A stretch of DNA of 64,000 nucleotides from Ceratorhiza oryzae-sativae (lineage: Eukaryota > Basidiomycota > Agaricomycetes > Cantharellales > Ceratobasidiaceae). Under the pieces are notes generated by a model. That model did not search any database, was not told the DNA's origin, and worked only from the letters and a program-made list of their open reading frames with translations. Below are positions 10,501 through 64,000 of this stretch, piece after piece (position 1 is the stretch's first letter; each line of letters begins with the position of its first letter). The stretch lies in contig JARWMV010000066.1 in NCBI GenBank assembly GCA_030998015.1, forward strand, positions 20,523 to 84,522, given 5' to 3'. The translations under genes were made by a program, and so were the position numbers.

Positions 10501-10650
10501 AAGGAGGAACAGGAATTCCCTGTAGCAGATAATCATGCAGAATGGCTTCAAAAGGGCCATGACGAACTCAAGGCTGCTCTGGAACTAGCAAACCAGAGGA
10601 CCAAAGAATACTATGATCAGAAACATCGGACCCCAGATGTCATGAACTGA
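7582..10650 (+). pseudogene. gypsy-1 pol: protease, RT, RNase H, integrase; split by a solo LTR
   Basis: The frame opens with ATG at 7582, which overlaps the gag stop. The aspartic protease has DSGA at about residue 69. RT has YPLPHINDI, FTKFDLKWGF and YMDD at about residue 385. RNase H has ETDASGYATGAVL and YDIYNKEMLAI. The integrase has its His/Cys zinc region (CHDSPAAGHPG to CESCIRNKH) and D,D,E core (TYDLITGLP, SDCGPNFAS, TDGQSERANQ). The protein stops just after HRTP because a 376-bp LTR is inserted; coding resumes at 11014. The RT fingers/palm segment MQFGQKNAPGTFM departs from the usual FGLxNAPxTFQ. Apart from the insertion this long frame is intact, so the protein would lack only its integrase tail and chromodomain. 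Confidence 0.92.
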
Positions 10651-21052: not shown

Positions 21053-21064
21053 GGTTATGAGCCC
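21053..21064 (+). other. copia primer-binding site matching the initiator tRNA-Met anticodon arm
   Basis: GGTTATGAGCCC directly follows the 5' LTR. It is the reverse complement of GGGCTCATAACC, the anticodon stem-loop of eukaryotic initiator tRNA-Met (as in yeast). Drosophila copia uses a cleaved half of the same tRNA, so an internal tRNA fragment is the likely primer here. Confidence 0.75.
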
Positions 21065-22055
21065 CGCAGCCTCTACTAATACGAAACCAGAGAGCCCCGT
21101 CGACCCGGTAACAGTCCCGCCAGCGATGTCTTCGAGCCACAAGCCAAGCTACTTGAGCAAGAAGTCGCTCGATGTTCCCGCTCTGAAGAGCGACGGATCT
21201 AATTACACGGCATGGAAATTTCGTCAGCAAATGGTCCTACGCCTACGAGGCCTAGAGGACATCGTTCTCGGAGTCGAGAAACCCCCGGCTGAACTCACCG
21301 ATGCCGATGCCAAAGACAAATCAAGGTCGAGCGAATATACTGAATCCCTAGCCGAGTGGCTAAAACGCGATCAAGAGGCTCTCGCCCAGATCGCATTGGC
21401 GATGGAAGATGAGGCGCTAGCCGATATCGTCGAGGCCGAAACATCGCAAGAGGCATGGACGCGAGTCGTCGAAAGGTGGGAAGGGAAGGGAGCTCAATCG
21501 ATATCCTTCCTGTACCACCAACTAGTCAATACGAAGATCGAAGAAGATCATGACATTACCGCGGGTATAAATTCCCTCCGTACGATCGCTTCGAAGATGA
21601 AAACACTAGGCGAACCGATTAGCGACTCTATGCTCGCTCAAATTATAATGAATGCGTTACCTCCATCGTATGCCGTCGTCAGCACGGTCATCCAGACGTC
21701 GAATCAATCGGGTTCAATTACCTCCGATTTAGTTATAAAGGCCGCATTAGCCGAGGAAGAGCGTCGCAAGAAGGGTCTTGGACTCACCGCGATGTTCACG
21801 AGCATTGCCAAGGGCAAAACTGCGACGTCGAAGGCCAAGGAACAGCAGTCCAGGCAGAGCCCTAAGACCTGTTCCAATTGCGGCAAGCCCGGACACTTAA
21901 GGGCTAAATGCTGGGCGAAAGGAGGTGGTGCAGGGGCCAAGGACCGTTCCAAAAGCGGCAGTCGCCGAAAGATAAAGGGAAAGACAGGGAGAAACCCAAA
22001 TCCGGTGATGCGAAACCAAAAGTCGAATCAGCGCAGATCGCGACGACATTTGTAG
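21057..22055 (+). CDS. copia gag
   Basis: The frame is 332 residues from ATG 21057, four bases into the primer site. It contains the copia-type Gag domain (LKSDGSNYTAWKFRQQMVLR; ETSQEAWTRVVERWEGK; YHQLVNTKIEEDHD) and a CCHC knuckle CSNCGKPGHLRAKC near 21870-21911. After the knuckle the frame drifts into Arg/Lys-rich sequence and stops at 22055, while the protease lies in another frame. A one-base indel near 21950 therefore separates gag from pol; in intact copia elements they are usually one frame. Confidence 0.88.
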   Translation: MSPAASTNTKPESPVDPVTVPPAMSSSHKPSYLSKKSLDVPALKSDGSNYTAWKFRQQMVLRLRGLEDIVLGVEKPPAELTDADAKDKSRSSEYTESLAEWLKRDQEALAQIALAMEDEALADIVEAETSQEAWTRVVERWEGKGAQSISFLYHQLVNTKIEEDHDITAGINSLRTIASKMKTLGEPISDSMLAQIIMNALPPSYAVVSTVIQTSNQSGSITSDLVIKAALAEEERRKKGLGLTAMFTSIAKGKTATSKAKEQQSRQSPKTCSNCGKPGHLRAKCWAKGGGAGAKDRSKSGSRRKIKGKTGRNPNPVMRNQKSNQRRSRRHL

Positions 22056-25000
22056 CTACGGACGACGTACCAGAGATACCGACGCTATATGCGCTACCCG
22101 TAGTCGATGAAGAGACAGCCGCGCACTATTGGCTGATCGACTCAGGGGCATCTCGTCACATGACCCCTCAGCGCGAATGGTTTTCGATTTACCGGTCCCT
22201 TGTACCTCCGGTCCCGGTTCGAGTCGGCGACGGAACCAAGATATATGCGGTCGGCATTGGCCGGATCCTAGTCACGCTTCGTAATCGTAAGGGTCATGAG
22301 ACCGATGCATACATGGAATCAGTGCTGCACGTACCCGATCTAAACGCGAGCCTGATGTCGGTGACCCAGCTCAATGAGAAGCACATGAACGTTTTATTCC
22401 AGAGGGGTATCGGCGCGATTATGATCAGTCAGGATGGTCGAGGCGACGAAATAGGATGGGCGAAGCAGTCAGGGCAACTCTACAAGGTTCAAGCGAAAAT
22501 TACACACACCGATTCTACCGCGCATACGGCCTTCGTAGAGCCAGACAGCAAAAATAACGATAGCGATTTACATGCCCAAGAATTCGTCGCATATACCGCG
22601 AGTACAGTTGCGCGAGCAGACCTACCTACCTGGCACCGCCGATTTGGTCACCTAAACTACGAATATGTGCTAGATATGGTGAGGAAAGGCGCGGTTGAAG
22701 GATGGATATAGTGGGAAACCGCTCACCTCCCAAGTCGAAATGCGGCCCATGCCTCCAGGGGAAGCATACACGCGCACCTTTTCCACCGTCCCAATCTCGT
22801 ACCTCTGAGGTACTCGAGCTTATGCACAGCGATCTACACGGCCCCTTACCCGTTCAAGCGATCGGAGGATTCCGATATTTCGCCGTCACGATTGATGATA
22901 AGTCCCGCAAGATATTCGTGCATTTATTGCGCAACAAGAGCGATTACGCGGGTCAATTCAAGGACCTCAAAGCGTCAATCGAGAATCTTACGGGAAGGCA
23001 AATTAAACACTTACGGACGGATGGTGGTGGCGAGTACGGGTCAAACGCCTTCGAGGCTTTCTTGCGAGCGGAAGGAATCCAGCACCAAAAGACCGAAGCA
23101 GATTCGTCGGCCAGTGTAATGGCGTAGCCGAGCGAGCGATACGTACCCTAAACGATTGTCAGCGCGCGATGCGATTCGACGCGCATTTACCCGAGAAATA
23201 TTGGGGTTACGCAATCTTACATGCGGCTCACCTGTGGAACGTAACGCCGAAGAAACGCCTAGATGGCCGAACGCCGAGTGAAGCATTTAGCGGCAAGATC
23301 CCAAATGTATCGGGATTACGTACGTTGGATGCAAGGCCTGGGCTCGTGTGCCAGACAATATGCGCACGAAACTCCAAGCGCGCTCAATCGAGTGCATATA
23401 CCTCGGATTCGCTCCTAATAGGAAGGCGCACGTGCTTGCTCAGCGCGGTACCGGTCGCATAATCACCTCACGTGATGTTAGTCTTTGACGAAGGGCTGGA
23501 CAATCGGCAGCGTGTGGTTATCGAGGATCATGATGAAAGCCCAACCGATGACGATGAGAATAAATCGGATGAATTACCACCCATTCAGATAGAAATTCAC
23601 TCACCCGAATCATCCGATATAACCACTCGAATCGTCAGAACCCGCGCATATACCCGATGAACCAGAAGCCTTACCTTCCGAGAGCCCGGACTTGGAGCCT
23701 GAAGATCAGGAAATAGTTTTTTTACAGCCAGATCCGCCGCCGGTGCGTCGATCCACGCGCGAACGAAGAGCACCAGAACGGTATGGAGCGCAAGTGGGCG
23801 CCTTAGCGCATACAGACGGACGAGAGGACGAAGAGGCACTTACTGCGATAATAGAATCGCCGCCTCAGACGTTCGATGCCATGCGTCGTCCAGACGCGAA
23901 TCTATGGCTTGAAGCGATGACAGAAGAGCTGAAATCGATCGAGCAGCACGAAGTATGGACGCTCGTGAGCCGTCCTATCGACAAAAATGTCGTTAAATGC
24001 CGATGGGTTTTCGACTACAAGCGTGGAGCTGATGGCGAGATCGTTCGCTACAAGGCTCGATTAGTCGCGAAGGGCTTTTCTCAGCGCCCTGGAGTCGATT
24101 TTGTCGAAATTTCGTCACCCGTCGCTGCTGCTGACTCCTTACGGACACTCTTAAGCATCGTAGCCGCTCTAGACCTCGAGCTTCACCAAATCGACGTTAA
24201 AACAGCCTTTTTACATGGGGATCTCGACGAGGAGATTTATATGGAGCAACCTCCAGGCTTTGTCGAAGGCCTAGAATCTGTCTGGAAGCTCAACAAGGCG
24301 ATTTACGGTCTCAAACAGGCGGCGCGAGCCTTCTATATGCGTCTCAAGAAAATCCTTGAAGATATAGGATTTAAACGATGCGATACGGATCACTCTGTAT
24401 TCTGGCTACACGATGGTGACGAAGTAGCGATTATACTTAGCCATGTGGACGATATGCTACTCGCTGGATCGTCTACAGAAATCCTCAATAAGGTTAAGGC
24501 TAAAATCGCTGAATCACTTGAAATCGTTGATCTAGGCGAGGCCAAAATGTTCGTAGGCATCAACGAAATTGAGCGCGATCGCAGCGCTGGAACTCTCAAG
24601 ATCTCTCAGCGCCGTTATATCAACGATATTCTTGCTCGCTTCAATATGTCCGACTGTAAATCATGCGAAACTCCGATGGCCGAATCTCCCAATCTACCAA
24701 AGCTCGAAGCGCCATCAATCGATCGGAACTGCTACCAGCAGCTCATCGGGTCTCTTATGTATGCTATGATTTCTACCTGACCCGACATCGCATATGCTAC
24801 TGGTATACTCACGCAACATGCGATGAATCCTGGTGAAGAACACTGGAACTCCGGCAAATGAGTTCTCCGCTATCTCAAAGGTACTATGGACTTAGGCATT
24901 GTCTATAATTGCTTTTGCGATTTAAATCTACTTGGATATGTCAACGCTGATTATGCCAGTGATAAGCATACAAGCCGTTCGACTACCAGCTGGGTGTTCT

Positions 25001-25439: not shown

Positions 25440-25731
25440 TGTTGAATTTACAATCATATGCGTGTATGTATGCGCATATTTGTTTCTGTTTCGTATCCCC
25501 CCTCTCTGATATCATGCGCGAGTTCGCGGGAATCCCCCTTCTTCTTCCTTAGTTCTCTACCTTCGTAGTTGAGCTAAGGTATCGTATTTTCTTTCTTTTC
25601 TCATGTATTCTATTCACACTGTACTCTATAGTACGATTTGTATCTTAGGTACAGTATATACAGTTCTCTACCTTCGTAGTTGAGCTAAGTACGATTTGTA
25701 TCTTAGCCACAAGTTACCTCCCTGCGTGAGA
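25440..25731 (+). repeat. copia 3' LTR
   Basis: It is 292 bp and shows no difference from the 5' LTR by eye. It is preceded by a purine-rich stretch AGGATTGAGTGGGCG (polypurine tract) and followed by CAATT. Confidence 0.93.
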
Positions 25732-25736
25732 CAATT

Positions 25737-26886
25737 TATCCCATTTCCACTTGACACTCTTCTTTAAGAGATTAAATAATGGAGCTACTATCCAAGTATA
25801 ATATGGAATATAACTTGAAAAGTAGGTCATCATTCCTAAGAATGTTTGTAATGTAGGTATATCCTTAGGTTCCTCTAATTGTAGAATGCCTTCCACTTTC
25901 TCCTTATGGGTAGACATGCCAAGTCTGGACACCTTTTGTCCTAAAAGGAGCAGAGATTGATATCCAAGGTGGCATTTACCAGGAGAAAGAGTCAATCCAG
26001 AGTCTGCAATGGCCTTTAATACTTTGTCTAAATGCTCACAGTGGTCTTCAAATGACTTGCTGTATATCACAATGTCATCTATATATACTAGAGCAAATAT
26101 CCATAAGAATGGGGCCAAAACATCAGTCATAACCCTTTGGAATACTGGAGGTCCATTTCTCCATCCAAAAGGCATTCTTCTGAATTGAAAGTGTCCTCTG
26201 TGACATCTAAATGCTGTCTTAGGCCTATCCTCATCCTTTATCTGGAGTTGAGTAAAGCCTGCTAGAGCATCTAGAGTACTGAGATATTGGGCTCCTTCAA
26301 GTGAATGAAGGATGTCTTGTTGCCTAGGTAGAGGGTATTCATCTGGTATAGCTACTGCATTAAGCTTCCTGTAATCAATGCACAAGCGAGGCTTATTATT
26401 CCGCCATACTACAAGCACTGGGAAGCCCCAAGGGCTCTTAGATTCCTCAATTACACCTAAGCGCAACCAATCATCTATTTGCTTGTCTATAGCAGCCTTA
26501 GCTTCTTCACTTGGCCTGTAAGGAGTTAAAGCAATTTCCTTTGTACCTGGTCTGAGATTAATCTCTACCCTGGCTGGGTAATTACCAAGTCTGCCATCTA
26601 ATCCAAAAGCTTCAAAGTTCTTCTTCACCACCTTTTGCAAGCTTTTCTTCTGATCTGGAGTCAAATTGTCTCCCCAATGTACTTCTGCCAAGAGTCTTTC
26701 CCTAGGGACTGGCTCTGGGTCAGGCAGTTCAGCAGTTTTAGGGCCTCCCTCTGGCTGCTTTGAGAGTTCAATCTCTTCAGCAGTAGGAGAAGGTATTTTG
26801 ACTTCCTTCATAAGAGTATTTGTTAGATGTGCCTTGGCTTCTCCTGCCTTCCTAAGTTTTTCAGGCAAGTCTTTTCTTTGTCCAAT
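25737..26886 (-). pseudogene. gypsy-2 pol: reverse transcriptase
   Basis: On the minus strand, from about 26886, the frame reads the linker (TLMKEVKIPSPTAEE), RT fingers (VVWRNNKPRLCIDYRKLN), YPLPRQQDILHSLEGAQ, STLDALAGFTQLQI, FGWRNGPPVFQRVM and the active site LVYIDDIVIYSK, then the thumb/connection region (LQTFLGMMTYFSSYI), up to the copia insertion point. The active-site YIDD and motif A Asp (STLDA) are present. Entry into this frame from the protease frame needs two single-base shifts (near 26990 and 26885), so the polyprotein is not continuous in this copy. Confidence 0.9.
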
Positions 26887-37552: not shown

Positions 37553-40500
37553 ATGGTCCTTCCCAAACTACATGACGAAAAGTTCACCAACCCACTCCAT
37601 ATTCATAATTGGCAACTCACCTGTCCTCATTGCCACAAACACCTAAAGACTGAGCTTGGACGTGATTTGCATATCCTGTTTCGTCCACACTGTTGCTTGA
37701 TGCACCAATATCGACTTCAGCGAAAAGGGAAACCCACAAGGAAACGAAAGCAGAAACGAACACGAATTGAGGACGTACCTTGTGAGCGGGTTACAGACGA
37801 GCCACCAGCGAAACGGGTACGATTTGCCCCAGATCCCCCACCCATTGCTGGCCCATCTCGTCTTCCCCCGCCCCGTGATCATCCAGATATGCAACGCACA
37901 CATAGCAGACGCTGGGTCGAGGCGTTCCCGTATAGCTCTGCCGGTTCGTATAGCGGTGCACGCACGAAGATGCGTCACGTCCGAAGTAACCTCTGGGTAG
38001 AGCCGTTTCCAGTGAGCACAGCCGGGGTGCCCGTTGGGAGACGCAAGAAAAAGGAGTTGGATTTGCCAGGCTACCTGAAATCATGTGGGTTGCTCGGTCA
38101 GCTGGAGGCGTTCAATACGGCCGAAACCTTGATGACGACGGGTTTAACTGGGGGTGAAAGGACTAGGCATCTTAAAAGCGCAATTGTGAGTACATATAGC
38201 ATTGATATATCGATTAGCGCTCACCTTTGAGGTAGTATAAGGGGAAGGGGGTGTGGAAGGACAATGCCGCACTGGTAGGAGATGTGGATTGGCTTCCGCG
38301 AGGACCAAAGTGGAAGACGGAGGAAGTCGTCGTGGGCGAGGGACCGTATGAGCAATCATACACTGTCTACTTACGGAGCATCTTGGATGTAATTCGTGAG
38401 CTGATTGGTGCGCGGCGGTTTCGGGCAAATATGCGTTACGTACCTGGGCGTCACTGGACGTCGTCGCAATGCGAGAACCAGGTGTACGACAAAATGTGAC
38501 GTGGAAACTGGTGGTGGCGAATGCAGGTAAGACTGAGTGATTGTTGAATAATTGAAAACTCACGTTTAACCAGTATCTCATACACAACAAAAGCGGCACC
38601 GTTGTGCTGCTTATCATTTCTTCGGACGAAACTACCTATGCCAGCGACCCACATAGCGCTAAAGCCCACCCCGTATATCTAACGATTGGGAACATCAATA
38701 AATCCATACAGTCTAAACCATCAAAGCACGCTATGGTTGTGATTGGTTACTTACCAGTCGAGTCCTTCAAGCACGTTTCGAATAAGGCCACACGCGTTCA
38801 ATATCGGGGGGAGTTACTACACAAGTCGCTCGCGAAAATCTTCGAACCCCTAAAGGCTGCGTCCGACGAAGGCCTCCTTGCTTGGTGTGCCGATGGATAC
38901 CTTCGCCACATATATCCCATAATCGCTGCCTGTGTTGCTGACTGGCCCGAGCAGAATGATCTCGCTTGCACCGTGAGGAACGGGTGTCCCAAGTGCAATC
39001 AAAAACACTGGGGACGAGGTCAGGGGAGGCCACTGGCGCCCGTGCGAGATCAAGAGAAGATAAGTGAATCGCTGCGGACTTACCAGAGAACGATGCAATC
39101 CTTGGTGTTGCGCACCCACCGTTTGAAGCCATGGCCGCCGTTCTGGGACGGTATCCCTCACTTCGACATCGGATTGAGCTTTACGCCCGATCTCCTTCAT
39201 CAGTTATACTTGGGGCTATACAGCCACGCCCGTGACTGGATTGAAGACTTTCTAGGTACTAGGGAGTTTAACAGACGGTTCAGGGCCATGCCGCTTGCAC
39301 ACGACTTACGGCATTTTAAGCGGGGTGTTACACTCACCAAACGGTGGACAGGACAGGAGGCGAGGCAGATGATGCAGCAGTTTCTGCCGATAGTTGTTGA
39401 CGCTCAAGCACCGTCTGATCTGGTTCGAATGGTTCGTGCACTTAGTGACTTTTCGTATTTGGTCCATAGCAGTCAACTAACCGAAGTTGACCTGGTGGAG
39501 CTAAACGAATCTCTCGCACGATTCCACGAGTCTAAACAGGTACTGGTTCAGTTGGGTATCGTATCAAGTCAAAGCGCGTTTGATCACATACCGAAAATAC
39601 ATATGCTTTCCTACTACGCGGAGTCGACTCGTGAGTTTGGAACACCTGACGGCTACAGTATGGAGACGCCCGAGCACTTACATATTCTATACGTCAAAAT
39701 TCCATGGCGTTTCTCGAACCGCAAGAACCCGATCCCTCAAATCGTCAAGTACGTTCGGCGGCTCGAAGCCCTCCTAGTCCAACGATCGCTAATCGAAGAG
39801 GCTTATGGCGAGCGCCCAGCATTCAAGATACAAGAGCCCATGTACGACGACAACGAAGACAAGACGTGTGGTGGCGGAGATGATGCAAGCAGTGACGAGT
39901 ACGAGGACGAGGACATGGTCATCTTAGAGTCGGATGAGCCGGTATCGGTATTGAAGCGTCTAGTGTATGTATAGTACGCTTCGGTAACTTAGCGTAGTGT
40001 ATGCGAAGCGGAAGAGCTCAACGAAATGTATAATACGCAAGTGAGAGGTGAAAGTCGCTGAGTAGAGAGGCGACGCATACATTCAGTTATATAGTAAGAA
40101 ACGGAGAATACAACGCGTGAATAACGGGTGTATCTATCTAATGTATCTACGAATGGAGTTAACATACGAAACTCGGGGTACATGCGGAGAGTAAGGAACA
40201 ACGTCGATATAACATCGAACAATATACGGGTCAGTTCAACAATCGGATACCGCGTGCTATCCCCGACCCAAGTTTGCAATCGCTCGGCACCCAACCGCTC
40301 CGCAAGTCCCCGGTCGAGACCTGATTATGTTATATGGAGCCTCCGACTTCTTCCGGGCGCTTCGCCGCTTTCTTCTTCCCAAGGCTCGCCTCCGTGGCGA
40401 GTCTCTCTCTTTCCTCCCCTCTGACCGGTACGACGTCTGGCACAAGGTCGGTCTCATCCACTTGCCGCTCGTTTTAGACCCCGACCAGCCTTGCCACCAT

Positions 40501-48247: not shown

Positions 48248-50994
48248 CCACCCAAGGTCAGATATCCCCACACAGGCCAGCCGGCAGGTCGAGGTGAGCA
48301 TACACCGTCAGCATTCTCGTCGCTCGATCTAGCGCTCATACGCACTTCCTAAGACCACCCAAGGTCAGATATCCCCACACAGGCCAGCCGGCAGGTCGAG
48401 GTGAGCATACACCGTCAGCATTCTCGTCGCTCGATCTAGCGCTCATACGCATACTGAGACCACCCAAGGTCATATATCCCCACACAGGCCAGCCGGCAGG
48501 TCGAGGTGAGCATACACCGTCAGCATTCTCGTCGCTCGATCTAGCGCTCATACGTACATACTGAGGCCACCCAAGGTCAGATATCCCCACACAGGCCAGC
48601 CGGCAGGTCGAGGTGAGCATACACCGTCAGCATTCTCGTCGCTCGATCTAGCGCTCATACGCACTCCTAAGACCACCCAAGGTCAGATATCCCCACACAG
48701 GCCAGCCGGCAGGTCGAGTGAGCATACACCGTCAGCATTCTCGTCGCTCGATCTAGCGCTCATACGCACTACTAAGACCACCCAAGGTCAGATATCCCCA
48801 CACAGGCCAGCCGGCAGGTCGAGGTGAGCATACACCGTCAGCATTCTCGTCGCTCGATCTAGCGCTCATACGCACTCCTAAGACCACCCAAGGTCAGATA
48901 TCCCCACACAGGCCAGCCGGCAGGTCGAGGTGAGCATACACCGTCAGCATTCTCGTCGCTCGATCTAGCGCTCATACGCATACTGAGCCACCCAAGGTCA
49001 GATATCCCCACACAGGCCAGCCGGCAGGTCGAGGTGAGCATACACCGTCAGCATTCTCGTCGCTCGATCTAGCGCTCATACGCACTCCTAAGCCACCCAA
49101 GGTCAGATATCCCCACACAGGCCAGCCGGCAGGTCGAGGTGAGCATACACCGTCAGCATTCTCGTCGCTCGATCTAGCGCTCATACGCACGAGCTAAGAC
49201 CACCCAAGGTCAGATATCCCCACACAGGCCAGCCGGCAGGTCGAGGTGAGCATACACCGTCAGCATTCTCGTCGCTCGATCTAGAGCTCATACGCACTCG
49301 CTAAGGCCACCCAAGGTCAGATATCCCCACACAGGCCAGCCGGCAGGTCGAGGTGAGCATACACCGTCAGCATTCTCGTCGCTCGATCTAGCGCTCATAC
49401 GCATACTGAGCCACCCAAGGTCAGATATCCCCACACAGGCCAGCCGGCAGGTCGAGGTGAGCATACACCGTCAGCATTCTCGTCGCTCGATCTAGCGCTC
49501 ATACGCATCCTAAGCCACCCAAGGTCAGATATCCCCACACAGGCCAGCCGGCAGGTCGAGGTGAGCATACACCGTCAGCATTCTCGTCGCTCGATCTAGC
49601 GCTCATACGCACGAGCTAAGACCACCCAAGGTCAGATATCCCCACACAGGCCAGCCGGCAGGTCGAGGTGAGCATACACCGTCAGCATTCTCGTCGCTCG
49701 ATCTAGCGCTCATACGCACTCCTAAGACCACCCAAGGTCAGATATCCCCACACAGGCCAGCCGGCAGGTCGAGGTGAGCATACACCGTCAGCATTCTCGT
49801 CGCTCGATCTAGCGCTCATACGCACTCCCTAAGTCCACCCAAGGTCAGATATCCCCACACAGGCCAGCCGGCAGGTCGAGGTGAGCATACACCGTCAGCA
49901 TTCTCGTCGCTCGATCTAGCGCTCATACGCACTAGCTAAGACCACCCAAGGTCAGATATCCCCACACAGGCCAGCCGGCAGGTCGAGGTGAGCATACACC
50001 GTCAGCATTCTCGTCGCTCGATCTAGCGCTCATACGCATACTAAGACCACCCAAGGTCAGATATCCCCACACAGGCCAGCCGGCAGGTCGAGGTGAGCAT
50101 ACACCGTCAGCATTCTCGTCGCTCGATCTAGCGCTCATACGCACTCGCTAAGACCACCCAAGGTCAGATATCCCCACACAGGCCAGCCGGCAGGTCGAGG
50201 TGAGCATACACCGTCAGCATTCTCGTCGCTCGATCTAGCGCTCATACGCATACTGAGGCCACCCAAGGTCAGATATCCCCACACAGGCCAGCCGGCAGGT
50301 CGAGGTGAGCATACACCGTCAGCATTCTCGTCGCTCGATCTAGCGCTCATACGTACATACTGAGGCCACCCAAGGTCAGATATCCCCACACAGGCCAGCC
50401 GGCAGGTCGAGGTGAGCATACACCGTCAGCATTCTCGTCGCTCGATCTAGCGCTCATACGCACTCGCTAAGACCACCCAAGGTCAGATATCCCCACACAG
50501 GCCAGCCGGCAGGTCGAGGTGAGCATACACCGTCAGCATTCTCGTCGCTCGATCTAGCGCTCATACGCACTCCCTAAGACCACCCAAGGTCAGATATCCC
50601 CACACAGGCCAGCCGGCAGGTCGAGGTGAGCATACACCGTCAGCATTCTCGTCGCTCGATCTAGCGCTCATACGCACTCCCTAAGTCCACCCAAGGTCAG
50701 ATATCCCCACACAGGCCAGCCGGCAGGTCGAGGTGAGCATACACCGTCAGCATTCTCGTCGCTCGATCTAGCGCTCATACGCATACTGAGCCACCCAAGG
50801 TCAGATATCCCCACACAGGCCAGCCGGCAGGTCGAGGTGAGCATACACCGTCAGCATTCTCGTCGCTCGATCTAGCGCTCATACGCACTCGCTAAGACCA
50901 CCCAAGGTCAGATATCCCCACACAGGCCAGCCGGCAGGTCGAGGTGAGCATACACCGTCAGCGTTCTTGTCGCTCGATCTAGCGCTCATACGCA
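48248..50994. repeat. Minisatellite: 26 tandem copies of a 104-107 bp unit
   Basis: Each unit has a nearly invariant 97-bp core, beginning CCACCCAAGGTCAGATATCC and ending GATCTAGCGCTCATACGCA, joined by a 7-10 bp variable linker (for example CTCCTAAGA, TACTGAG, CTCGCTAAGA, CGAGCTAAGA). Starts of the core are at 48248, 48355, 48460, 48567, 48673, 48778, 48884, 48988, 49093, 49200, 49307, 49411, 49515, 49622, 49728, 49835, 49942, 50047, 50154, 50259, 50366, 50473, 50580, 50687, 50791 and 50898. Core substitutions are very few, so the array is homogenised. Open frames on the minus strand arise only because many units are near 105 bp. Confidence 0.97.
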
Positions 50995-52285
50995 CCACCT
51001 AATTTCAATTCACACCGCTTAGTATCCTCAACCTCGTGCCTATCCCTCACGCTTACTATCTAATGTTTTGTTTCATCAACCCGACGTCAGTATCCCATAC
51101 GCATGACCTCGATCTTTCATTCCACCTCCTGTTTAGTTATCGTTGTTTTCATTGTCCTATTCATCATGTCTTCCTTACTTACATACTATGGTCCCAGCGT
51201 TTCCATACATCGATTTATACAGACCCTTTTTATCAACATATCACATCCTGAATTCTCACAGCCACTCACTTTGTATGGCTTCATGAAACCGGACCGACTC
51301 CAACTTCATCTTCCGAACGCACGGTTACAGGGCCCTCACTTACCTGATATCCTCCCGTCGACTGTTCACTGACACGTCAACTCTCTCGCTAGCCAACCCG
51401 ATAGACTTGTACTTGCCCACTAGCATTATCAGATATTCAAACTTACTGAATGGGCCTTGCATGAATGGTATTACCACCTACCTCCTGTCCCAACAATGAA
51501 TCTAGGTAAATTCCCATCGGAATCGTTCAAGATTTAAACTACCAACCCACTGAACACTCATTCAGACGGACGATGCAGTCGAGGACGGGAGCAGTCAACA
51601 ATCCAGAATCGATAAAGGAGCCTGGCGGTCAGCCCTATTCCCTCTTCTCCCATTTCTGAAGCTCACAATCTGCCCGTTCCCATGGGGCACCAATGGGTTC
51701 GATGACGGCAACAAGTGTTGTAATGTCCGTCAAGTCGTGCCTTCATTTGCCGAATGCACATACCCTCAAATTCCTATCACCGTGGGCGAAAGTTTTTTTC
51801 GATCACCAACGCAATGTTTATTGTTTCGTATCGTGGAATTGTCTCCGATGTCAGTTTTATCTTGGATAAACCTTGGGAATCCACGGGTACGTACACCCTA
51901 ACCAGAAACCAACCAGCGCCAACGTTAGCTGGAAAATAAAACCCGTGAATTGGATTTCCTACCTCGGCCCTCTCGATCTAACAAAGCACTCAATCCTCGT
52001 CAGCTTGCTTGATTTCCTGAACGTACCCACTGGGAAGTATTGTTGATCAGTGTAGGATGTAACAAAAGCGAAGGAACCTACTTTGATTTCAACCTCCATG
52101 CTCGCTGTGGGGTTCTCGATTCTTTACGATCTCGTACGCTATCAGTTGCCGTGCTGTCGTCGTTCGGGGCAGAGGGACTTGCACGTGTGCAAGGGGTTTC
52201 CCACCATCAGGCGCTTAGATACGATCACTTCCGGATAGAGACTGCACGCTAATCGTGGGCGAATCGCCCACCACCTAGGCTCGTG
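50995..52285. other. No supported gene right of the minisatellite
   Basis: About 1.3 kb with only short, unconvincing open frames. No transposon ends or repeats shared with the rest of the window. Confidence 0.5.
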
Positions 52286-53964: not shown

Positions 53965-54283
53965 AATATCGGAGCACCGCCTAAGGATAGACAAGTCATT
54001 TTACCGAAATATAAACTATAGAAACATACTCACCGGATACAGCTGAAGATAGCGTTTGATCATATAGTAAGTTGATGACCAGCGTGTATCTGAATCGCGA
54101 AGGAGTTGCAAGACAGGCAAAATGATACTGGATGACTTCCCGTAAGCGCTAAAGCTAAAGCTAAGCTAAACTTTCCGCTGCTAAAGACAGGAACCCTGCG
54201 GCAATACGTCATATCGAATGACGTGTACTTTCGTGTACTTTCGTGTACTTTCGTGTTCAATCTGTACATCCTTCTCTTCCACC

Positions 54284-55640
54284 ATGTATCGCTCGAAAAT
54301 GCAGACAAATCGCAAACATGCTGTATATTCGCTTTTATTTCATAAAAACAAACAGACTGCCCGACTCAGATTCAAAAAGCTGGCCGCACTTGTTCTGCTC
54401 GCTCGCCTAGCCAAGGTCTCCAAGGTTCTAGAGCGCCGTGCTCGATACCGCCACCTACTCCGCTCCCATCTACTGTCGAATCCTCGACTTGACACGCCAT
54501 GGCAACAGGTGCGCCGCAGCCACGACGATCGGGCGTACCTAGCAACAATGGGATTAGATGTCAAAACGTTCAAATACATACTCGGAAAGGGATTTGAGGA
54601 ACTATGGAACACGCATACCATTGTCCGAGGGGATGTGGGCGAGCAGGGGCGACCTCGGCTTCGCAGGCGATCGCTTCGAGCTGACGGTGCGCTGGGTCTG
54701 GCATTGTATTGGTTAACTTCAACCGAAAGCGAGGCTGCCTTGGGACAGACCTTTGCACTGGTGCCTTCGGTTTTATCCGGTACCTCTCGTTTGCCCTGCG
54801 AATCCTTCTACACATCCTTCGAAACACCTCTGAGAGCCGAGTCGCTTGGCCTACTCCAGACCAGATGGGCAAGTTCTCAGAGCTGATCCAGCGTCGACAC
54901 CCCTCAATTTGTGGAGCATTTGGGTTCATGGATGGCCTCAACCTGCCAGTTGGAACAAGTTCGGATCCGCAAGAAGAAGAGGCAACGTACAACGGCTGGT
55001 TGCACTCACACCGGGTGAGCAACATATTTGTTTTTGCGCCTGATGGTAAGCATACAAGTAATTCAAGCGGTGGATCAAACTCACCTAACGATATTGCGTA
55101 GGCTGTGTAATTGCATGCAAACTCAACGCACCAGGTAGTTGGCATGACGCTCGAATTGCTCGGGATGTGTACTTGAAGCTGGTTAACGACACACCTGAAG
55201 GATTTTTCCTGATCGCTGACACCGCATTCCGTAACAACTCGGTGGTACTTGAGGGAAAAATACGCACCCCACTCAAGAAGGGGAGCCGGCTTCCTTCTAA
55301 TCGCCACAAACGCAGGAGAGTAATCCAAGAGAGCAACAACCTGACGCAGGCACGCCAGGCTGCTGAATGGGGAATGCGCTCCTTGCAGGGGGTGTTTGCT
55401 CGACTTCGGTTACCTCTAGACATCAACAATCCAGAGGGACGCCAAGTGCTGCTGGAGGTGTGTGTCCGACTCCACAATCTGCGAACACGCTGCGTTGGAA
55501 TCAATGAAATTCGGTCAGTTTATATGCCTCGGGAGGACACACTTGGTGCATCAATATGCAATTATGCTCACCGTGTTTTGTTATCGAATGTTCGTGCGCA
55601 CAATCGCACCCGACGCTTCTACCTAGAAGACAACGAATAA
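54284..55640 (+). pseudogene. PIF/Harbinger transposase (DDE_4 type)
   Basis: The chosen start is MYRSKMQTNRK at 54284; the longer frame from 54218 adds only the subterminal repeat. The N-terminal region (GLDVKTFKYILGKGFEELW) resembles the helix-turn-helix part of HARBI1-like proteins. The catalytic core has GAFGFMDGLNLPVGTS (first Asp), an intron 55046-55101, GSWHDARIARD, FLIADTAFRNN (second Asp) and AAEWGMRSLQG (Glu). The stop is at 55640. A one-base shift near 54780 (VLS to RYLSFALRILL) is needed, so this copy is probably inactive or has an unrecognised tiny intron. It acts with the Myb-like partner in this family. Confidence 0.85.
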
Positions 55641-57597: not shown

Positions 57598-57607
57598 TTA
57601 GGTTAGG
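57598..57607 (+). repeat. Telomeric junction TTAGGTTAGG at the broken hAT gene
   Basis: Two TTAGG units lie exactly between the truncated hAT coding sequence and the first Penelope-like unit. The G-rich strand runs toward the chromosome end, as at the terminus. Confidence 0.85.
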
Positions 57608-57662
57608 TGGAGCGAGGAGTCGTGAGTGCGAGCGGAGCGAGCACGAGCGGCGACGAGCGGAA

Positions 57663-57728
57663 GAAAGGCTAAGAACTCCTAGGTAAATACCCGGGAGAGA
57701 CTTTCGTAGATACTCATCAGAGCCCTTC
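57663..57728 (-). ncRNA. Candidate type I hammerhead ribozyme, copy A
   Basis: On the element sense strand: stem I strand GAAGGGCT, core CTGATGA, short stem II GTATCTAC, core GAAA, a stem III hairpin containing CTCC/GGAG, then a CTT cleavage triplet (NUH) and the other stem I strand AGCCTTTC. Stem I can form 8 bp with one G-U. Stem II is very short (2-3 bp) and stem III imperfect. Hammerheads are known in Penelope-like elements, where they lie in the LTR-like terminal repeat. It is conserved in three copies here. Confidence 0.6.
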
Positions 57729-58196
57729 CACTGTGTCTTTTTATGCCGTGGCAGACGAACATGCCACGTCACTGGCGTGAGAAACGCCAAGGGAAGAAGA
57801 CTTAACCGAACAAAGGAGAAGAACAGCTGACTGATCCTGACCGCATGGTAACCGTCCATGTGATCACTCCTCCACACGACTGGCCAATCAGGGGGAGACA
57901 CCTGACTAACGCCAAGAACCATCAAGGTCCGAACCGAGCTGATCCGTGTGAAGCCGAGGCTCCCACGGACTCGGCGATCCGAGGATCAACCGGCCGAGGG
58001 CTCAACTCAACTCCACCCAGACCCTGCCCGGGGGACCCTGAAGGTTCTCAAAGCGCCAGAACAGGCGCTCAGACCCTGAGGACCGAGAAGTGCCTGACTA
58101 AGTGACCAGGGATTTGTAATATACCCTGAGTCACGTGACACTTAGTCAGCTAGAGAGTAAAGGACAAGTCATCCAAGATGACTAATCCTCCCTTAA

Positions 58197-58262
58197 CCAT
58201 TACCTAATCTGGTTAGGATTAAAGGTTAGGTTAAGTTCGGTTAGGTTGTGTTAGGGGTTGGG
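58197..58262 (-). repeat. Degenerate telomere-like tract in the 3' region of unit A
   Basis: On plus: GGTTAGGATTAAAGGTTAGG, TTCGGTTAGG and GTTAGGGGTTGGG. The same tract is at 59980-60031 in unit B, so it belongs to the element rather than being a separate telomere relic. Confidence 0.7.
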
Positions 58263-58289
58263 TTTGAACCAACTCTATCACACACTTGT

Positions 58290-59361
58290 CTAATGCAATG
58301 AAGGATCTGTGTCAAGATCCTCCCATACACGATTGAAGATGTATTCTGGCAAGCCAAAACGTTCATCCTCATTGTACGCTAGTACTATTTTTCGCCAGGT
58401 TGATGTTAAATCTCCAATTGCCAAAGGGCGTTTGCGAGATAATATCAGGCGTTGACTGACTAGTTGGGCAAGGGCATCATCCTTTGTCCTAAGGTTTTTT
58501 CGTGCTGTCCTGTCCTGTATTCCAAGCCGCGCGGACCTGGGTAGGTGATCTTCTTCCTCCTGATCGGAGTCAGACTCACTAACCACCTCCGACACAGAAG
58601 CGAGGTTAGCTGTAACACGCGCCACCTTGCGACGCCGGGTTCTGCGTTGGGGCTGTGCCACCCCAACCTCGAACAGTGTAAGCTGTCGAGCTGTTTGCCT
58701 TGGAACAATATCTTTGTTCCATTCACTAAGTATCGCATTGTGTACTTCGTGTATGTCAACGTAATCCCATACTGGATTAAACACTGTCTTAATGACGTGC
58801 AACCCGCCTGTCTGTTCTGATGCGACATCTTTTGGAGCCAACCGGTTCCTCCAGCGTTCAGTTGCATGCTTATTCAGCCATGTTTTTAATACAGTGAGGT
58901 GGGTACCCCCTGGCCAAGTACAGATCCCGCAGATCCTTCAAGGCCAGTTCATAGTACTCCTTAGTACTTGATAGGGTAGCCATCCTGGTAATCTCACCAA
59001 TGAAGGTGCCTCTTTTGACATCAAGAGGGTGGTGAGACGCCCATGGGATACGTTCTTGATTGTTCTGCGCTTTCTTGTACACTCTATAATGGACGCGGTT
59101 ATCCTTTATAAATATGAACATATCCAGAAAGATAGAGAAATCTCTATTCGCAGACCATACGATTTCGCAACCATCGAACTTAATACCGCTACATATTTTC
59201 AAGGCTTCTTCATGGTCATCTGCCTCTACTATAGCTAGTACATCGTCGATATACCTTCGGTAGAATAATATTCTAGATTCCGTTGGTATAAATTGTTCCT
59301 CAAAATAAGCACCATAAAGGTTGGCTATGTCTGGGGATGACGCTACCCCCATAGCCAGGCC
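58290..59361 (-). pseudogene. Penelope-like reverse transcriptase, C-terminal fragment (unit A)
   Basis: It starts within motif B (AMGVASSPDIANLYGAYF) and contains the active site FYRRYIDDVLAIVE, the thumb region and the C-terminal basic/acidic tail, ending DLDTDPSLH. A one-base insertion in a T run at 58883-58887 (five T against four in unit B) shifts the frame after YPPHCIK; the rest continues in another frame from MAPKDVASEQ. No GIY-YIG endonuclease follows the RT. This copy is dead. Confidence 0.9.
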
Positions 59362-59371
59362 TTAGGTTAGG
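59362..59371 (+). repeat. Telomeric junction TTAGGTTAGG between units A and B
   Basis: Two TTAGG units join the truncated 5' end of unit A to the 3' end of unit B. This is what telomere addition to a truncated element followed by new attachment would leave. Confidence 0.88.
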
Positions 59372-59426
59372 TGGAGCGAGGAGTCGTGAGTGCGAGCGGA
59401 GCGAGCACGAGCGGCGACGAGCGGAA

Positions 59427-59492
59427 GAAAGGCTAAGAACTCCTAGGTAATCACCCGGGAGAGACTTTCGTAGATACTCATCAGAGCCCTTC
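59427..59492 (-). ncRNA. Candidate type I hammerhead ribozyme, copy B
   Basis: Same core (CTGATGA, GAAA) and stem I pairing as copy A. The stem III loop differs from copy A at a few positions (GGGTGATTACC against GGGTATTTACC), which keep or improve the inner pairing. Confidence 0.6.
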
Positions 59493-59979
59493 CACTGTGT
59501 CTTTTTATGCCATGGCAGGCGAACATGCCACGTCACTGGCGTGAGAAACGCCAAGGGAAGAAGACTTAACCGAACAAAGGAGAAGAACAGCTGACTGATC
59601 CTGACCACATGGTAACCGTCCATGTGATCACTCCTCCACACGACTGGCCAATCAGGGGGAGACACCTGACCAACGCCAAGAACCAACAAGGTCCGAACCG
59701 AGCTGATCCGTGTGAAGCCGAGGCTCCCACGGACTCGGCGATCCGAGGATCAACCGGCCGAAGGCTCAACTCGACTCCACCCAGACCCTGCCCGGGGGAC
59801 CCTGAAGGTTCTCAAAGCGCCAGAACAGGCGCTCAGACCCTGAGGACCGAGAAGTGCCTGACTAAGTGACCAGGGGTTTGTAATATACCCTGAGTCACGT
59901 GCCACTTAGTCAGCTAGAGAGTAATGGACAAGTCATCCAAGATGACTAATCCTTCCTTAACCATTACTTAATCTGGTTA

Positions 59980-60031
59980 GGATTAAAGTTAGGTTAAGTT
60001 CGGTTAGGTTGTGTTAGGGGTTGGGTTTGAA
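59980..60031 (-). repeat. Degenerate telomere-like tract in the 3' region of unit B
   Basis: Matches 58197-58262 of unit A with a one-base difference (AAAGTTAGG against AAAGGTTAGG). Confidence 0.7.
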
Positions 60032-60052
60032 CCAACTCTATCACAAACTTGT

Positions 60053-63000
60053 CTAATACAATGAGGGATCTGTGTCAAGATCCTCCCATACACGATTGAA
60101 GATGTGTTCTGGCAAACCAAAACGTTCATCCTCATTGTACGCTAGTACTATTTTTCGCCAAGTTGATGTTAAATCTCCAATTGCCAGTGGGCGTTTGCGA
60201 GATAATATCAGGCGTTGATTGACTAGTTGGGCAAGGGCGTCATCCTTTGTCCTAAGGTTTTTGCGTGCTGTCCTGTCCTGTATTCCAAGCCGCGCGGACC
60301 TGGGTAGGTGATCTTCTTCCTCCTGATCGGAGTCAGACTCACTAACCACCTCCGACACAGAAGCGAGGTTAGCTGTAACACGCGCCACCTTGCGACGCCG
60401 GGTTCTGCGTTGGGGCTGTGCCACCCCAACCTCAAACAGTGTGAGCTGTCGAGCTGTTTGCCTTGGAACAACGTTTTTGTTCCATTCACTAAGTATCGCA
60501 TTATGTACTTCGTGTATGTCAACGTAGTCCCATACTGGATTAAACACTGTCTTAATGACGTGCAACCTGCCTGTCTGTTCTGATGCGACATCTTTTGGAG
60601 CCAAACGGTTCCTCCAGCGTTCGGTTGCATGCTTATTCAGCCATGTTTTAATACAGTGAGGTGGGTACCCCCTGGCCAAGTACAGATCCCGCAGATCCTT
60701 CAAGGCCAGTTCATAGTACTCCTTAGTACTTGATAGGGTAGCCATCCTGGTAATCTCACCAATGAAGGTGCCTCTTTTGACATCAAGAGGATGGTGAGAC
60801 GCCCATGGGATACGTTCCTGGTTGTTCTGCGCTTTCTTGTACACTCTATAATGGACGCGGTCATCCTTTATAAATATGAACATATCCAGAAAGATAGAGA
60901 AATCTCTATTCGCAGACCATACGATTTCGCAACCATCGAACTTAATACCGCTACATATTTTCAAGGCTTCTTCATGGTCATCTGCCTCTACTATAGCTAG
61001 TACATCGTCGATATACCTTCGGTAGAATACTATTCTCGATTCCGTTGGTATAAACTGTTCCTCAAAGTAAGCACCATACAGGTTGGCTATATCTGGGGAC
61101 GATGCTACCCCCATAGCCAGGCCTTTAAGTTGCCTATAGAACTGGTCTTGAAATCGAAAGATGAGGTTGTCGTTAGCTATGTCAAAAAGATCATAGAACG
61201 CTTTCATCTTGTGGATCTGGTTTTCTGATAATTCTCCCAATTCGTCATTATCATTGAACCATTCAGGATAGTAGTGGTCTATACAGTATGTGGCCACAAT
61301 CTTCCTACTCTCAATGAGTGGAACATTCGGATAATAGGCCGTGACATCGCCTGAGACTATCCATACTTTCCGATCCTTGGGGAGTTTCACCCCTTCGAGC
61401 GCTATAGCTAACGCCTTACTTCCTTCTAACACGTAAGGCCGCGCCTTGACTATAGGCTTGAGTATATGGCTGAAAATCTTAGCGGCTGGATTTACCATCG
61501 CTGAGTGACATGGAACGATTGGTCTCATCTTCCATGGGTTTTTATGTATCTTGGGGATACCGTAAAACCTGGGCATCCCTTTCCAAGGGTCCCATTCAGG
61601 GATGGCGTGTACACACCACTTACGTTGCTGTTTAGAGACACCGGGCCATTCCCCTTCTTTAGCCAGTTTCCTAATAGCTTCGCGTTTTCTAACCATATGT
61701 CCTAATGCTATGAATGGGACTATTTTTTGATAGTCCTTAGATTCAAGCATTTTTAGGCACTGCTGAAGGTACCATTCACGTGTTACGACCGCACATCCGA
61801 GGTTTTTGTCCGTAGGAAGGACTAAGTATCCACCGTTGTCGATGAAGTCCTTAACAGGCTTTAATTGCACAAGACCGTGATCTCTTGGCAATCCATGAGG
61901 GGGAATAGCATCGAGCATTCGCTCAATAGACGCTTGCCCTTTCTCAAGACCTGCTTCCATGTTTCGACTCATATCAGGTGCACCTTCTGAGGTTTTACCC
62001 TTAAAGTCGAACTGCGGTAGGTACTCTGCTTCAGCATCATCGTCAGCATCTTTATTCAGGAAGAAATACTTCCATCTTAACCGGTTGCAAAAGTCTTGCC
62101 ACGCATTACTGACAATCGCACGATTCACGGGTGAGAATACCATATATTTCAAACCAGCAGACAAATGAATCGATACATTAGTGGGGAGAACTACCCCTGG
62201 CCCAACGTGAACCCCTTTCCTAAACGCCGCTAACCTCCTTATTTCATAAGGGACACGCTCGAGTAGGACTTTTATGGCTATGTTAATTGGTAAGTATAAA
62301 ATATCGTCTGGATAACTAGACGGATGTTCATACCTCCATTCAGAGCTTCTGATCACTTGGATCTTCTGCTCGGCCCAGCGTTGGAATTGCCGCCTTTGTT
62401 CTTGTTCGCGCCTTGGCCCTTGAACTTGCGTTTCTGGGCAGGGCCATAGTGGAGGGGGGCTGCAAGTCCTGTCTTGGGACTCGTATGGCCTGTCTTCCCC
62501 TTGCCTTTGCGCGCGATCGGGCCTAACTTGGGAGCTTTGCCCTTGGGAGCGGGCTTGGCGATCGGCTAAACCGATGTTAGGTTGTGAGTTACCTGACCAA
62601 TCGAAAATACTCACATTTTGATTAAGCGCACGCTTAATCTCTGCACCAACCATGGCCCTGATAGCGGCGGGGTCCATGGGTTTATCGTCGACATCCATGT
62701 CGACGTCGGCAGCGTCCTTGATGGCTGTCTTCCTTGCCACCTTCACCTTCTCTGCGACCGCGCGAGCATTTTGGATCTCGATGATCCGAGTGCCGAAGGT
62801 GGGGAGGTCTGCAAGGAGACGGTCCTTTTCGCCTTTGCGGAAAGGGTCCTCCACGTATTCGATGGCTGGAGGTTGACCCTCAACAGCCTCGGCAACGCGG
62901 GGGGCAATGGTGCGTTGGAGCGCCACATAGGCGTCCTCGACCTTCCGCTTCCAAGTTGGGCACCAGACGTCGTGCGCCAACTGTGACCGGAGGAATGACT

Positions 63001-63457
63001 CCTCAGCGGTCTTGAGTTCACGACCATGCGCGTACGCTTGGTCGACATAGGCGGTGTGGGCGGCAGAGAGCGTCTGCAGCATCTCTGACCCTTGCGGGTT
63101 GGCCCTGAACTCCTTCGACACTTGCCACGCAGGTTCTTTCAAACCGCGGACTTGTGTCGGTAGCTCGCCCTTGTTCATCGACTCGCCTAAGCGAGCGACT
63201 ACCCTCTGCACGTTATGGAATTTCTCCACTAGGGAGTTTAGTTCCTTGAACGGCTCGCGTAAGGTGTCCCTGTACGCGAGGGGGACGAGTTCCAAGAGCT
63301 CCGTCCAGCTCTTGGCATGCCCAGAGGCCACCATACGCTTCTCTGCATCAGCGATGGCGGCGGTAGACATGTGCCCTAAAAGGGCCGGGGACATGGCACG
63401 GGCGAACGATGGCATAGAGCCAGTCGCGGTCGAAGAACGGGCTTGGGGGGCGACCAT
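60053..63457 (-). CDS. Penelope-like reverse transcriptase, endonuclease-deficient (Coprina type)
   Basis: From ATG 63457 (MVAPQARSST) the frame has 1,134 residues. The frame is open further upstream to 63820, but that part is the neighbouring 3' repeat, so 63457 is preferred. The N-terminal third is Gag-like and helical, followed by a low-complexity linker. RT motifs are FYGIPKIHKNPWKMRPIV (motif 2), IVSGDVTAYYPNVP (motif A, Asp near residue 704), LKGLAMGVASSPDIANLY (motif B) and YRRYIDDVLAI (motif C, Tyr near residue 815). The C-terminus has an Arg-rich patch (PQRRTRRRKVAR) and an acidic stretch, but no GIY-YIG domain. These RTs are the closest relatives of telomerase RT and extend chromosome ends. 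No stop or frameshift breaks the RT. Confidence 0.92.
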   Translation of the reverse strand: MVAPQARSSTATGSMPSFARAMSPALLGHMSTAAIADAEKRMVASGHAKSWTELLELVPLAYRDTLREPFKELNSLVEKFHNVQRVVARLGESMNKGELPTQVRGLKEPAWQVSKEFRANPQGSEMLQTLSAAHTAYVDQAYAHGRELKTAEESFLRSQLAHDVWCPTWKRKVEDAYVALQRTIAPRVAEAVEGQPPAIEYVEDPFRKGEKDRLLADLPTFGTRIIEIQNARAVAEKVKVARKTAIKDAADVDMDVDDKPMDPAAIRAMVGAEIKRALNQNVSIFDWSGNSQPNIGLADRQARSQGQSSQVRPDRAQRQGEDRPYESQDRTCSPPPLWPCPETQVQGPRREQEQRRQFQRWAEQKIQVIRSSEWRYEHPSSYPDDILYLPINIAIKVLLERVPYEIRRLAAFRKGVHVGPGVVLPTNVSIHLSAGLKYMVFSPVNRAIVSNAWQDFCNRLRWKYFFLNKDADDDAEAEYLPQFDFKGKTSEGAPDMSRNMEAGLEKGQASIERMLDAIPPHGLPRDHGLVQLKPVKDFIDNGGYLVLPTDKNLGCAVVTREWYLQQCLKMLESKDYQKIVPFIALGHMVRKREAIRKLAKEGEWPGVSKQQRKWCVHAIPEWDPWKGMPRFYGIPKIHKNPWKMRPIVPCHSAMVNPAAKIFSHILKPIVKARPYVLEGSKALAIALEGVKLPKDRKVWIVSGDVTAYYPNVPLIESRKIVATYCIDHYYPEWFNDNDELGELSENQIHKMKAFYDLFDIANDNLIFRFQDQFYRQLKGLAMGVASSPDIANLYGAYFEEQFIPTESRIVFYRRYIDDVLAIVEADDHEEALKICSGIKFDGCEIVWSANRDFSIFLDMFIFIKDDRVHYRVYKKAQNNQERIPWASHHPLDVKRGTFIGEITRMATLSSTKEYYELALKDLRDLYLARGYPPHCIKTWLNKHATERWRNRLAPKDVASEQTGRLHVIKTVFNPVWDYVDIHEVHNAILSEWNKNVVPRQTARQLTLFEVGVAQPQRRTRRRKVARVTANLASVSEVVSESDSDQEEEDHLPRSARLGIQDRTARKNLRTKDDALAQLVNQRLILSRKRPLAIGDLTSTWRKIVLAYNEDERFGLPEHIFNRVWEDLDTDPSLY

Positions 63458-63497
63458 GTTAGCGAGCAGAGAAGAGGGGGCGGGGCACTCAATTGGG

Positions 63498-63502
63498 TTA
63501 GG
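63498..63502 (+). repeat. Single TTAGG at the junction of units B and C
   Basis: GGGTTAGG joins the B leader to the 3' terminus of unit C. Confidence 0.7.
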
Positions 63503-63919
63503 TGGAGCGAGGAGTCGTGAGTGCGAGCGGAGCGAGCACGAGCGGCGACGAGCGGAAGAAAGGCTAAGAACTCCTAGGTAATCACCCGGGAGAGACTTTC
63601 GTAGATACTCATCAGAGCCCTTCCACTGTGTCTTTTTATGCCATGGCAGGCGAACATGCCACGTCACTGGCGTGAGAAACGCCAAGGGAAGAAGACTTAA
63701 CCGAACAAAGGAGAAGAACAGCTGACTGATCCTGACCACATGGTAACCGTCCATGTGATCACTCCTCCACACGACTGGCCAATCAGGGGGAGACACCTGA
63801 CCAACGCCAAGAACCAACAAGGTCCGAACCGAGCTGATCCGTGTGAAGCCGAGGCTCCCACGGACTCGGCGATCCGAGGATCAACCGGCCGAGGGCTCAA
63901 CTCAACTCCACCCAGACCC
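63503..63919 (-). mobile_element. Penelope-like unit C: 417-bp 3' stub capped by telomere
   Basis: It matches the first 417 bp of the 3' regions of A and B, is cut at CCCAGACCC, and continues straight into TTAGG repeats. It is either a severely 5'-truncated third insertion or the remaining upstream repeat of unit B. Confidence 0.88.
63558..63623 (-). ncRNA. Candidate type I hammerhead ribozyme, copy C
   Basis: Identical in core and stems to copy B. It lies upstream of the RT start of unit B, where self-cleavage could trim the 5' end of the B transcript. Confidence 0.6.
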
Positions 63920-63920
63920 G

Positions 63921-64000
63921 TTAGGTTAGGTTAGGTTAGGTTAGGTTAGGTTAGGTTAGGTTAGGTTAGGTTAGGTTAGGTTAGGTTAGGTTAGGTTAGG
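63921..64000 (+). repeat. Telomere: (TTAGG)16 to the end of the window
   Basis: Sixteen uninterrupted pentamers with the G-rich strand running to the right edge. The unit is TTAGG, not the common fungal TTAGGG. The window may stop before the true end. Confidence 0.95.

Follow-up and report, generated by a model that had tools for sequence, protein, structure and literature searches.

The last 6.4 kb of the window, a 64,000-nt stretch of the Ceratorhiza oryzae-sativae genome (contig C66, positions 20,523 to 84,522), consists of head-to-tail pieces of one retroelement followed by G(TTAGG)16. We consider it very likely that they represent a young Penelope-like element (PLE) family that is endonuclease-deficient and attached to telomeres, that resides in a basidiomycete with telomerase and TTAGG telomeres, and that multiplies by the cycle proposed below. 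Since C66 is 84,522 nt long, the right edge of the window is the contig end, which we take, on the strength of the assembly, to be a chromosome end. The genome searched comprises 48.8 Mb in 253 contigs.

Three direct repeats in the same orientation, units A, B and C, are 98% and 97% identical over 300 nt; the sense strand of the element is the minus strand. Unit A is 97.2% identical to unit B over 1769 aligned nt, and unit C is 99.3% identical to B over 427 aligned nt and 98.1% identical to A. The 5′ parts of A and C are missing, with A ending ~1.77 kb and C ~0.43 kb from the element 3′ end, and B alone, with a body of ~4.1 kb and one long open reading frame (ORF), holds the whole 1134-aa frame. 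The boundary word TTAGGTTAGG stands at the proximal boundary of A and again between A and B, whereas the B–C boundary differs in kind, having a single TTAGG. A preliminary description of this DNA had proposed tandem units with their 3′ ends on TTAGG towards the centromere, 5′ truncation of A and C, and a run from C straight into the terminal (TTAGG)16 at the contig end; all of this is borne out.

The predicted structure of the 1134-aa reverse transcriptase (RT) has telomerase as its nearest fold, placing it in the telomerase-related type expected of an endonuclease-deficient, telomere-associated PLE. None of 30 family members (the window's RT and 29 relatives) matched a GIY-YIG endonuclease in Pfam at E 0.1, in line with the absence of GIY-YIG described earlier. 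The RT call is based on relatives and fold, since the window's own RT gave a single, insignificant Pfam match; a PDB sequence search with it yielded nothing beyond weak RT matches. The named relatives among the 120 best of 758 are Lentinula, Bondarzewia and Psilocybe proteins; precomputed Pfam annotations on relatives are PF28514 and PF26215, and no relatives were found in IMG/VR. Full-length frames without a stop occur in three copies (C66, C72 and C51), and most copies read are 95–97% like unit B.

Attachment to TTAGG across the genome

A 300-nt probe from the element 3′ end gave 44 matches in the genome, 30 of them with loci, and the protein query gave 41. TTAGG stood in register, in 1–7 units, at 43 of 45 readable distinct 3′ junctions, the other two having none; these junctions represent the fetched loci, with matches starting past query position 12 dropped and C17 and C62:49 kb set aside. 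The proximal flanks mostly differ among the 45 junctions, and the element 3′ end is constant. At the 5′ ends, TTAGG was present at the break in 22 of 31 readable cases and absent in nine, and truncation points lay 24–3907 nt away from the element 3′ end. The association with TTAGG is not due to chance, because (TTAGG)3 has 63 matches in the genome and the reversed pattern, used as a control, has one. These 63 matches merge into 32 arrays, 28 of which lie inside a copy or ≤12 nt away; the arrays away from copies are on C40, at C72:55921, in a duplicate of the latter on C96, and on C250. TTAGGG was rejected as the true repeat, there being no (TTAGGG)3 in the genome. TTAGG has been reported at the ends of Rhizoctonia scaffolds (PMC7884421), although the methods section of that paper names TTAGGG.

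No contig among 25 has copies on both strands by the probe, and in 20 of the 25 the copies point towards the nearer contig end. C148 and C79 likewise end in a truncated copy followed by shorter TTAGG runs, the configuration of C66. Few contig ends show TTAGG, and an array as long as that of C66 is found only there. Strict confinement to ends is put in doubt by 9 of 43 copies that face away from the nearer contig end and by 25 of 43 that lie at least 10 kb from a contig end (43 of the 44 probe rows, one 49-nt fragment being left out of the orientation and distance counts), and subtelomeres also duplicate. Taken together, the junction, truncation, TTAGG-array and orientation patterns are those of elements added at chromosome ends. 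They, with telomere capping and the RT type, argue for the endonuclease-deficient telomeric PLE recognised earlier.

Several loci show further detail. On C17 (L084 585–642), TTAGG runs set apart pieces of the element, 7 and ~36 nt long, which are apparently serial, heavily truncated additions. Distal to many copies we observed several differing, partly TTAGG-like repeat families that start at TTA or TTAGG (L085, L030, L007, L058, L013, L016, L025, L010 and L022). Full-length copies on C24, C72, C9 and C31 (L063, L061, L064 and L090) are followed by a common distal flank, which is 100% identical over ~710 nt for C24, C72 and C9 and was matched by eye for C31; this is a recent subtelomere duplication.

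Upstream repeat, internal telomere-like block and ribozyme motif

Three features, as read from the DNA, would add to the earlier account: a pseudo-long terminal repeat (pseudo-LTR), an internal telomere-like block and a ribozyme motif. In nine copies (C66, C44, C148, C100, C51, C24, C72, C9 and C31) the protein match begins at residue 1. The 5′ end could be read in every one of them, and the junction is the same: each runs through CAATTGGG, one TTAGG and (T)GGAGCGAGG into a further 3′ segment, which is itself truncated, at 21 to ~650 nt. C24, C72, C9 and C31 count as one case among the nine because their distal flank is common to all four. Over 412 positions, unit C shows two differences from the 3′ segment of B, against five or more from each of the other copies compared, making B's own segment its nearest relative among 37 other copies. 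The nearest-copy pattern elsewhere was the same for C100; on C44 the corresponding segment tied for first, and on C148 it ranked third. We conclude that unit C is probably the upstream pseudo-LTR of B, so that the array would record two additions rather than three. The pseudo-LTR–ORF–pseudo-LTR arrangement of canonical Penelope is found here, with the upstream repeat truncated in each copy; pseudo-LTRs have been described as the product of a tandem arrangement (PMC11167929). The structural organisation of Penelope is stated not to be shared by endonuclease-deficient PLEs of protists and fungi (PMC3846280), and the repeat seen here would extend the fungal picture relative to that statement.

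Just after the ORF, four TTAGG lie within ~45 nt; unit B contains a further two at its 3′ end and another two in the rest of its length. Many copies end at this internal block. Counting the C24 group once, 9 of 29 5′ ends fall at positions 617–670, a range chosen after looking (p 1e-7 for a uniform distribution over 1800 nt, 3e-5 over 700); with four further ends added (C17, C95, C62 and C44) the count is 10 of 33. On C24, C51 and C148, the next element begins on the block. Once exposed, it may act as a telomere seed or as homology for recombination. The block was also considered as a start for copying, which six distant copies did not support: the usual 3′ end is the starting point in four, and the other two begin at positions 382 and 1443, neither on TTAGG.

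Each 3′ segment contains, on the sense strand, a hammerhead-ribozyme motif, CTGATGAGTATCTACGAAA, ~50–135 nt from the element 3′ end in all three units; cleavage would be expected between ...UUCUU and AGCC. A descriptor written after the motif had been seen (a stem I with four or more pairs, the core, a stem II, the A-U closing pair of stem III, and UH) fits only three places in the window, which are copies of one another and count once, and has no match in 80 Markov-randomised windows. A chance or decayed motif, inactive and alike in the copies only through their youth, is unlikely to be the explanation, although several observations favour it: the motif has no match in Rfam, an alternative fold is better by 3.4 kcal/mol, the mean variation over the 77 nt is unexceptional (120 of 540 windows are as low), variation exceeds 10% at two positions of stem I, and two of 20 distinct sequences no longer have GAAA. 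However, core, stems I–III and the UH site together satisfy the one descriptor. The CUGAUGA core is kept in all 20 distinct sequences and GAAA in 18, and variation peaks in the apical loop of helix III (37% and 30%), with the stems averaging 0.8%. Moreover, the motif adjoins a telomere-complementary 3′ tail. This is the order published for Terminons, whose hammerhead directly precedes reverse-complement telomere repeats (PMC6431247), and the putative ribozyme conforms to it. A working hammerhead seems the likelier reading.

Table 1 Features of the array at the end of contig C66 (positions are those of the window)
Feature	Position	Strand
TTAGG, two units, where the 3′ end of unit A meets non-element DNA (proximal boundary)	57598..57607	+
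Unit A, 5′-truncated copy with 3′ end centromere-side; RT remnant split across two frames	57598..59361	-
Hammerhead-ribozyme motif in the 3′ segment of A; predicted cleavage between 57671 and 57670	57656..57732	-
Internal telomere-like block of A, right after the ORF end; limits by inspection	58213..58266	-
Two TTAGG units at the A–B boundary, at the missing 5′ part of A	59362..59371	+
Unit B, complete body: 3′ segment, internal telomere-like block, ORF and short 5′ leader	59362..63497	-
Hammerhead-ribozyme motif in the 3′ segment of B	59420..59496	-
Internal telomere-like block of B	59977..60029	-
ORF of B, encoding 1134 aa with a helical N-terminal region and a telomerase-like RT (YIDD); GIY-YIG not matched in Pfam	60053..63457	-
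Single TTAGG of the B–C junction, CAATTGGG-TTAGG-TGGAGC, read as template-encoded	63498..63502	+
Unit C, a 5′-truncated 3′-segment copy, probably the upstream pseudo-LTR of B	63498..63919	-
Hammerhead-ribozyme motif in C	63551..63627	-
G(TTAGG)16, the terminal telomere repeat with which contig C66 ends	63920..64000	+

Elsewhere in the window, a satellite of 107-bp period (48248–50995; ~26 copies, 96% match) lies ~7 kb proximal to the array. ORFs at 51–1292, 7582–10650, 17353–18705, 21057–22055, 23692–24780 and 25714–26868 look Gypsy- or Copia-like, giving 51–26868 the appearance of a repeat-rich subtelomere. The Gypsy ORF at 7582–10650 was searched, and its best fungal named relatives, among the best 120 of 5777 matches, are from Ceratobasidium and Rhizoctonia (the top two rows are frog records). 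Together with the TTAGG ends reported for Rhizoctonia, they make a host in the Ceratobasidiaceae probable. ORFs 38604–39974 and 54218–55640 look transposase-related by eye.

Proposed cycle and competing explanations

In the cycle that we propose, transcription would begin within the upstream pseudo-LTR or within the distal neighbour's 3′ segment, so that the full-length RNA would begin with part of such a segment, and the hammerhead in this leading segment would trim the RNA 5′ end. The RNA 3′ tail, ...CCACCUAACC(UAACC)n, would then base-pair, at a chromosome end, with the G-rich TTAGG strand exposed there, as the junctions suggest, and the telomerase-like RT would extend that end directly, with no need for an endonuclease. 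Early stopping or erosion of the end would leave a truncated 5′ end, and the TTAGG observed over such ends would be supplied by telomerase, the gene for which is present in the host genome, or by the next element. Repeated rounds would build head-to-tail arrays. At the C66 end, A would have been added and truncated, B would have been added onto A with its upstream pseudo-LTR C, and C would have been truncated before telomerase made the terminal (TTAGG)16. The GG that precedes the TTAGG run was considered as evidence of microhomology priming; an RNA tail ending in CCUAACC explains it equally, and it is not used for the mechanism.

This history departs in part from the preliminary description, which had read the order of addition directly from three independent terminal events: the order of A then B stands, but C is better placed as arriving with B. 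Three separate additions would require C to have been joined to a complete B exactly at its 5′ end. C is indeed an element 3′ end on TTAGG in the correct orientation, and the elements that begin on the internal block on C24, C51 and C148 suggest that additions may need few TTAGG. However, TTAGG number should differ among independent additions, as it does among 40 other junctions (0–7 units, with one unit in 12 of the 40), whereas all nine full-length 5′ ends have exactly one, in the same B–C junction, and the nearest-copy comparison groups C with B. We regard three additions as quite improbable. Recombination among older copies, whether by unequal exchange, break-induced replication or subtelomere duplication, could also have produced the array. 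Segmental copying is real, as the flank common to C24, C72, C9 and C31 demonstrates, and the clustering of ends at the internal block is what exchange between telomere-like tracts would give. Against this, flanks that mostly differ beside a constant element 3′ end, variable TTAGG numbers and the scatter of the remaining truncation points argue for addition at ends, and A and B differ by 2.8%, so the A–B pair is no fresh duplication. Recombination as the origin of the array is very unlikely, and end addition is preferred.

Endonuclease-free PLEs are a natural model for the relationship between telomerase and retroelements. One assembly here provides three contig ends of the same configuration and 45 attachment junctions that can be read; with copies mostly 95–97% like unit B and three open frames besides, end-priming, ribozyme processing and interplay with telomerase become testable in a fungus.

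Comparison with known systems

The array matches the published endonuclease-deficient telomeric PLEs, namely Athena, fungal PLEs and Terminons. Coprina is a name for fungal endonuclease-deficient elements of this kind, and the present family may belong to the Coprina or Athena clade. The class has been known since 2007 (cited in PMC6431247), a fungal group has been described (PMC3846280), and PLEs near chromosome ends have been reported in Agaricus bisporus (PMC7473861). Like that fungal group, the present element has a fungal host, an RT without GIY-YIG, attachment to telomere repeats and 5′ truncations covered by them. According to PMC3846280, however, fungal endonuclease-deficient PLEs lack Penelope-style direct and inverted repeats, whereas full-length copies here have a pseudo-LTR-like direct repeat. 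Our literature searches, which covered open-licence papers only, showed no report of a hammerhead or pseudo-LTR in a fungal endonuclease-deficient PLE.

With the Terminons and Athena elements of bdelloid rotifers the family shares a 3′ end in which the hammerhead motif stands just ahead of reverse-complement telomere repeats, arrays that run head to tail and are 5′-truncated by short telomere repeats, and an RT protein without an endonuclease (PMC6431247). It differs in its ~4.1 kb and one long ORF, as opposed to the giant size and accessory ORFs of Terminons, and in having TTAGG rather than the rotifer repeats. No RT was noticed by eye among the ORFs, themselves not searched, of the 10 kb distal to the C24 copy, where a giant Terminon might lie. 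PLE hammerheads are described as minimal, without helix III (PMC6155905, PMC7761336), whereas helix III here would be an extended hairpin. Canonical Penelope and Poseidon resemble the element in their tandem or partial-tandem pseudo-LTR–ORF–pseudo-LTR structure, hammerhead and telomerase-like RT; there, by the account in PMC11167929, GIY-YIG cuts the target, whereas here none was found by Pfam and the target is TTAGG.

The HeT-A, TART and TAHRE elements of Drosophila likewise form head-to-tail arrays with 3′ ends centromere-side, in which the neighbour's 3′ segment is placed as a possible promoter, an LTR-like unit (PMC5537684). It is conceivable, though somewhat doubtful, that the HeT-A strategy has evolved convergently in the fungal PLE, with a promoter, a hammerhead and a telomere-pairing tail combined in its 3′ segment. 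Each copy would be driven by the 3′ segment of its distal neighbour, new full-length copies would thus bring along a leader from that neighbour, to be consumed at the chromosome end, and the internal block would let a shortened copy seed telomerase or the next element. The Drosophila elements, as PMC5537684 portrays them, are non-LTR and replace telomerase, whereas the present family combines a telomerase-like RT with a host that has a telomerase gene.
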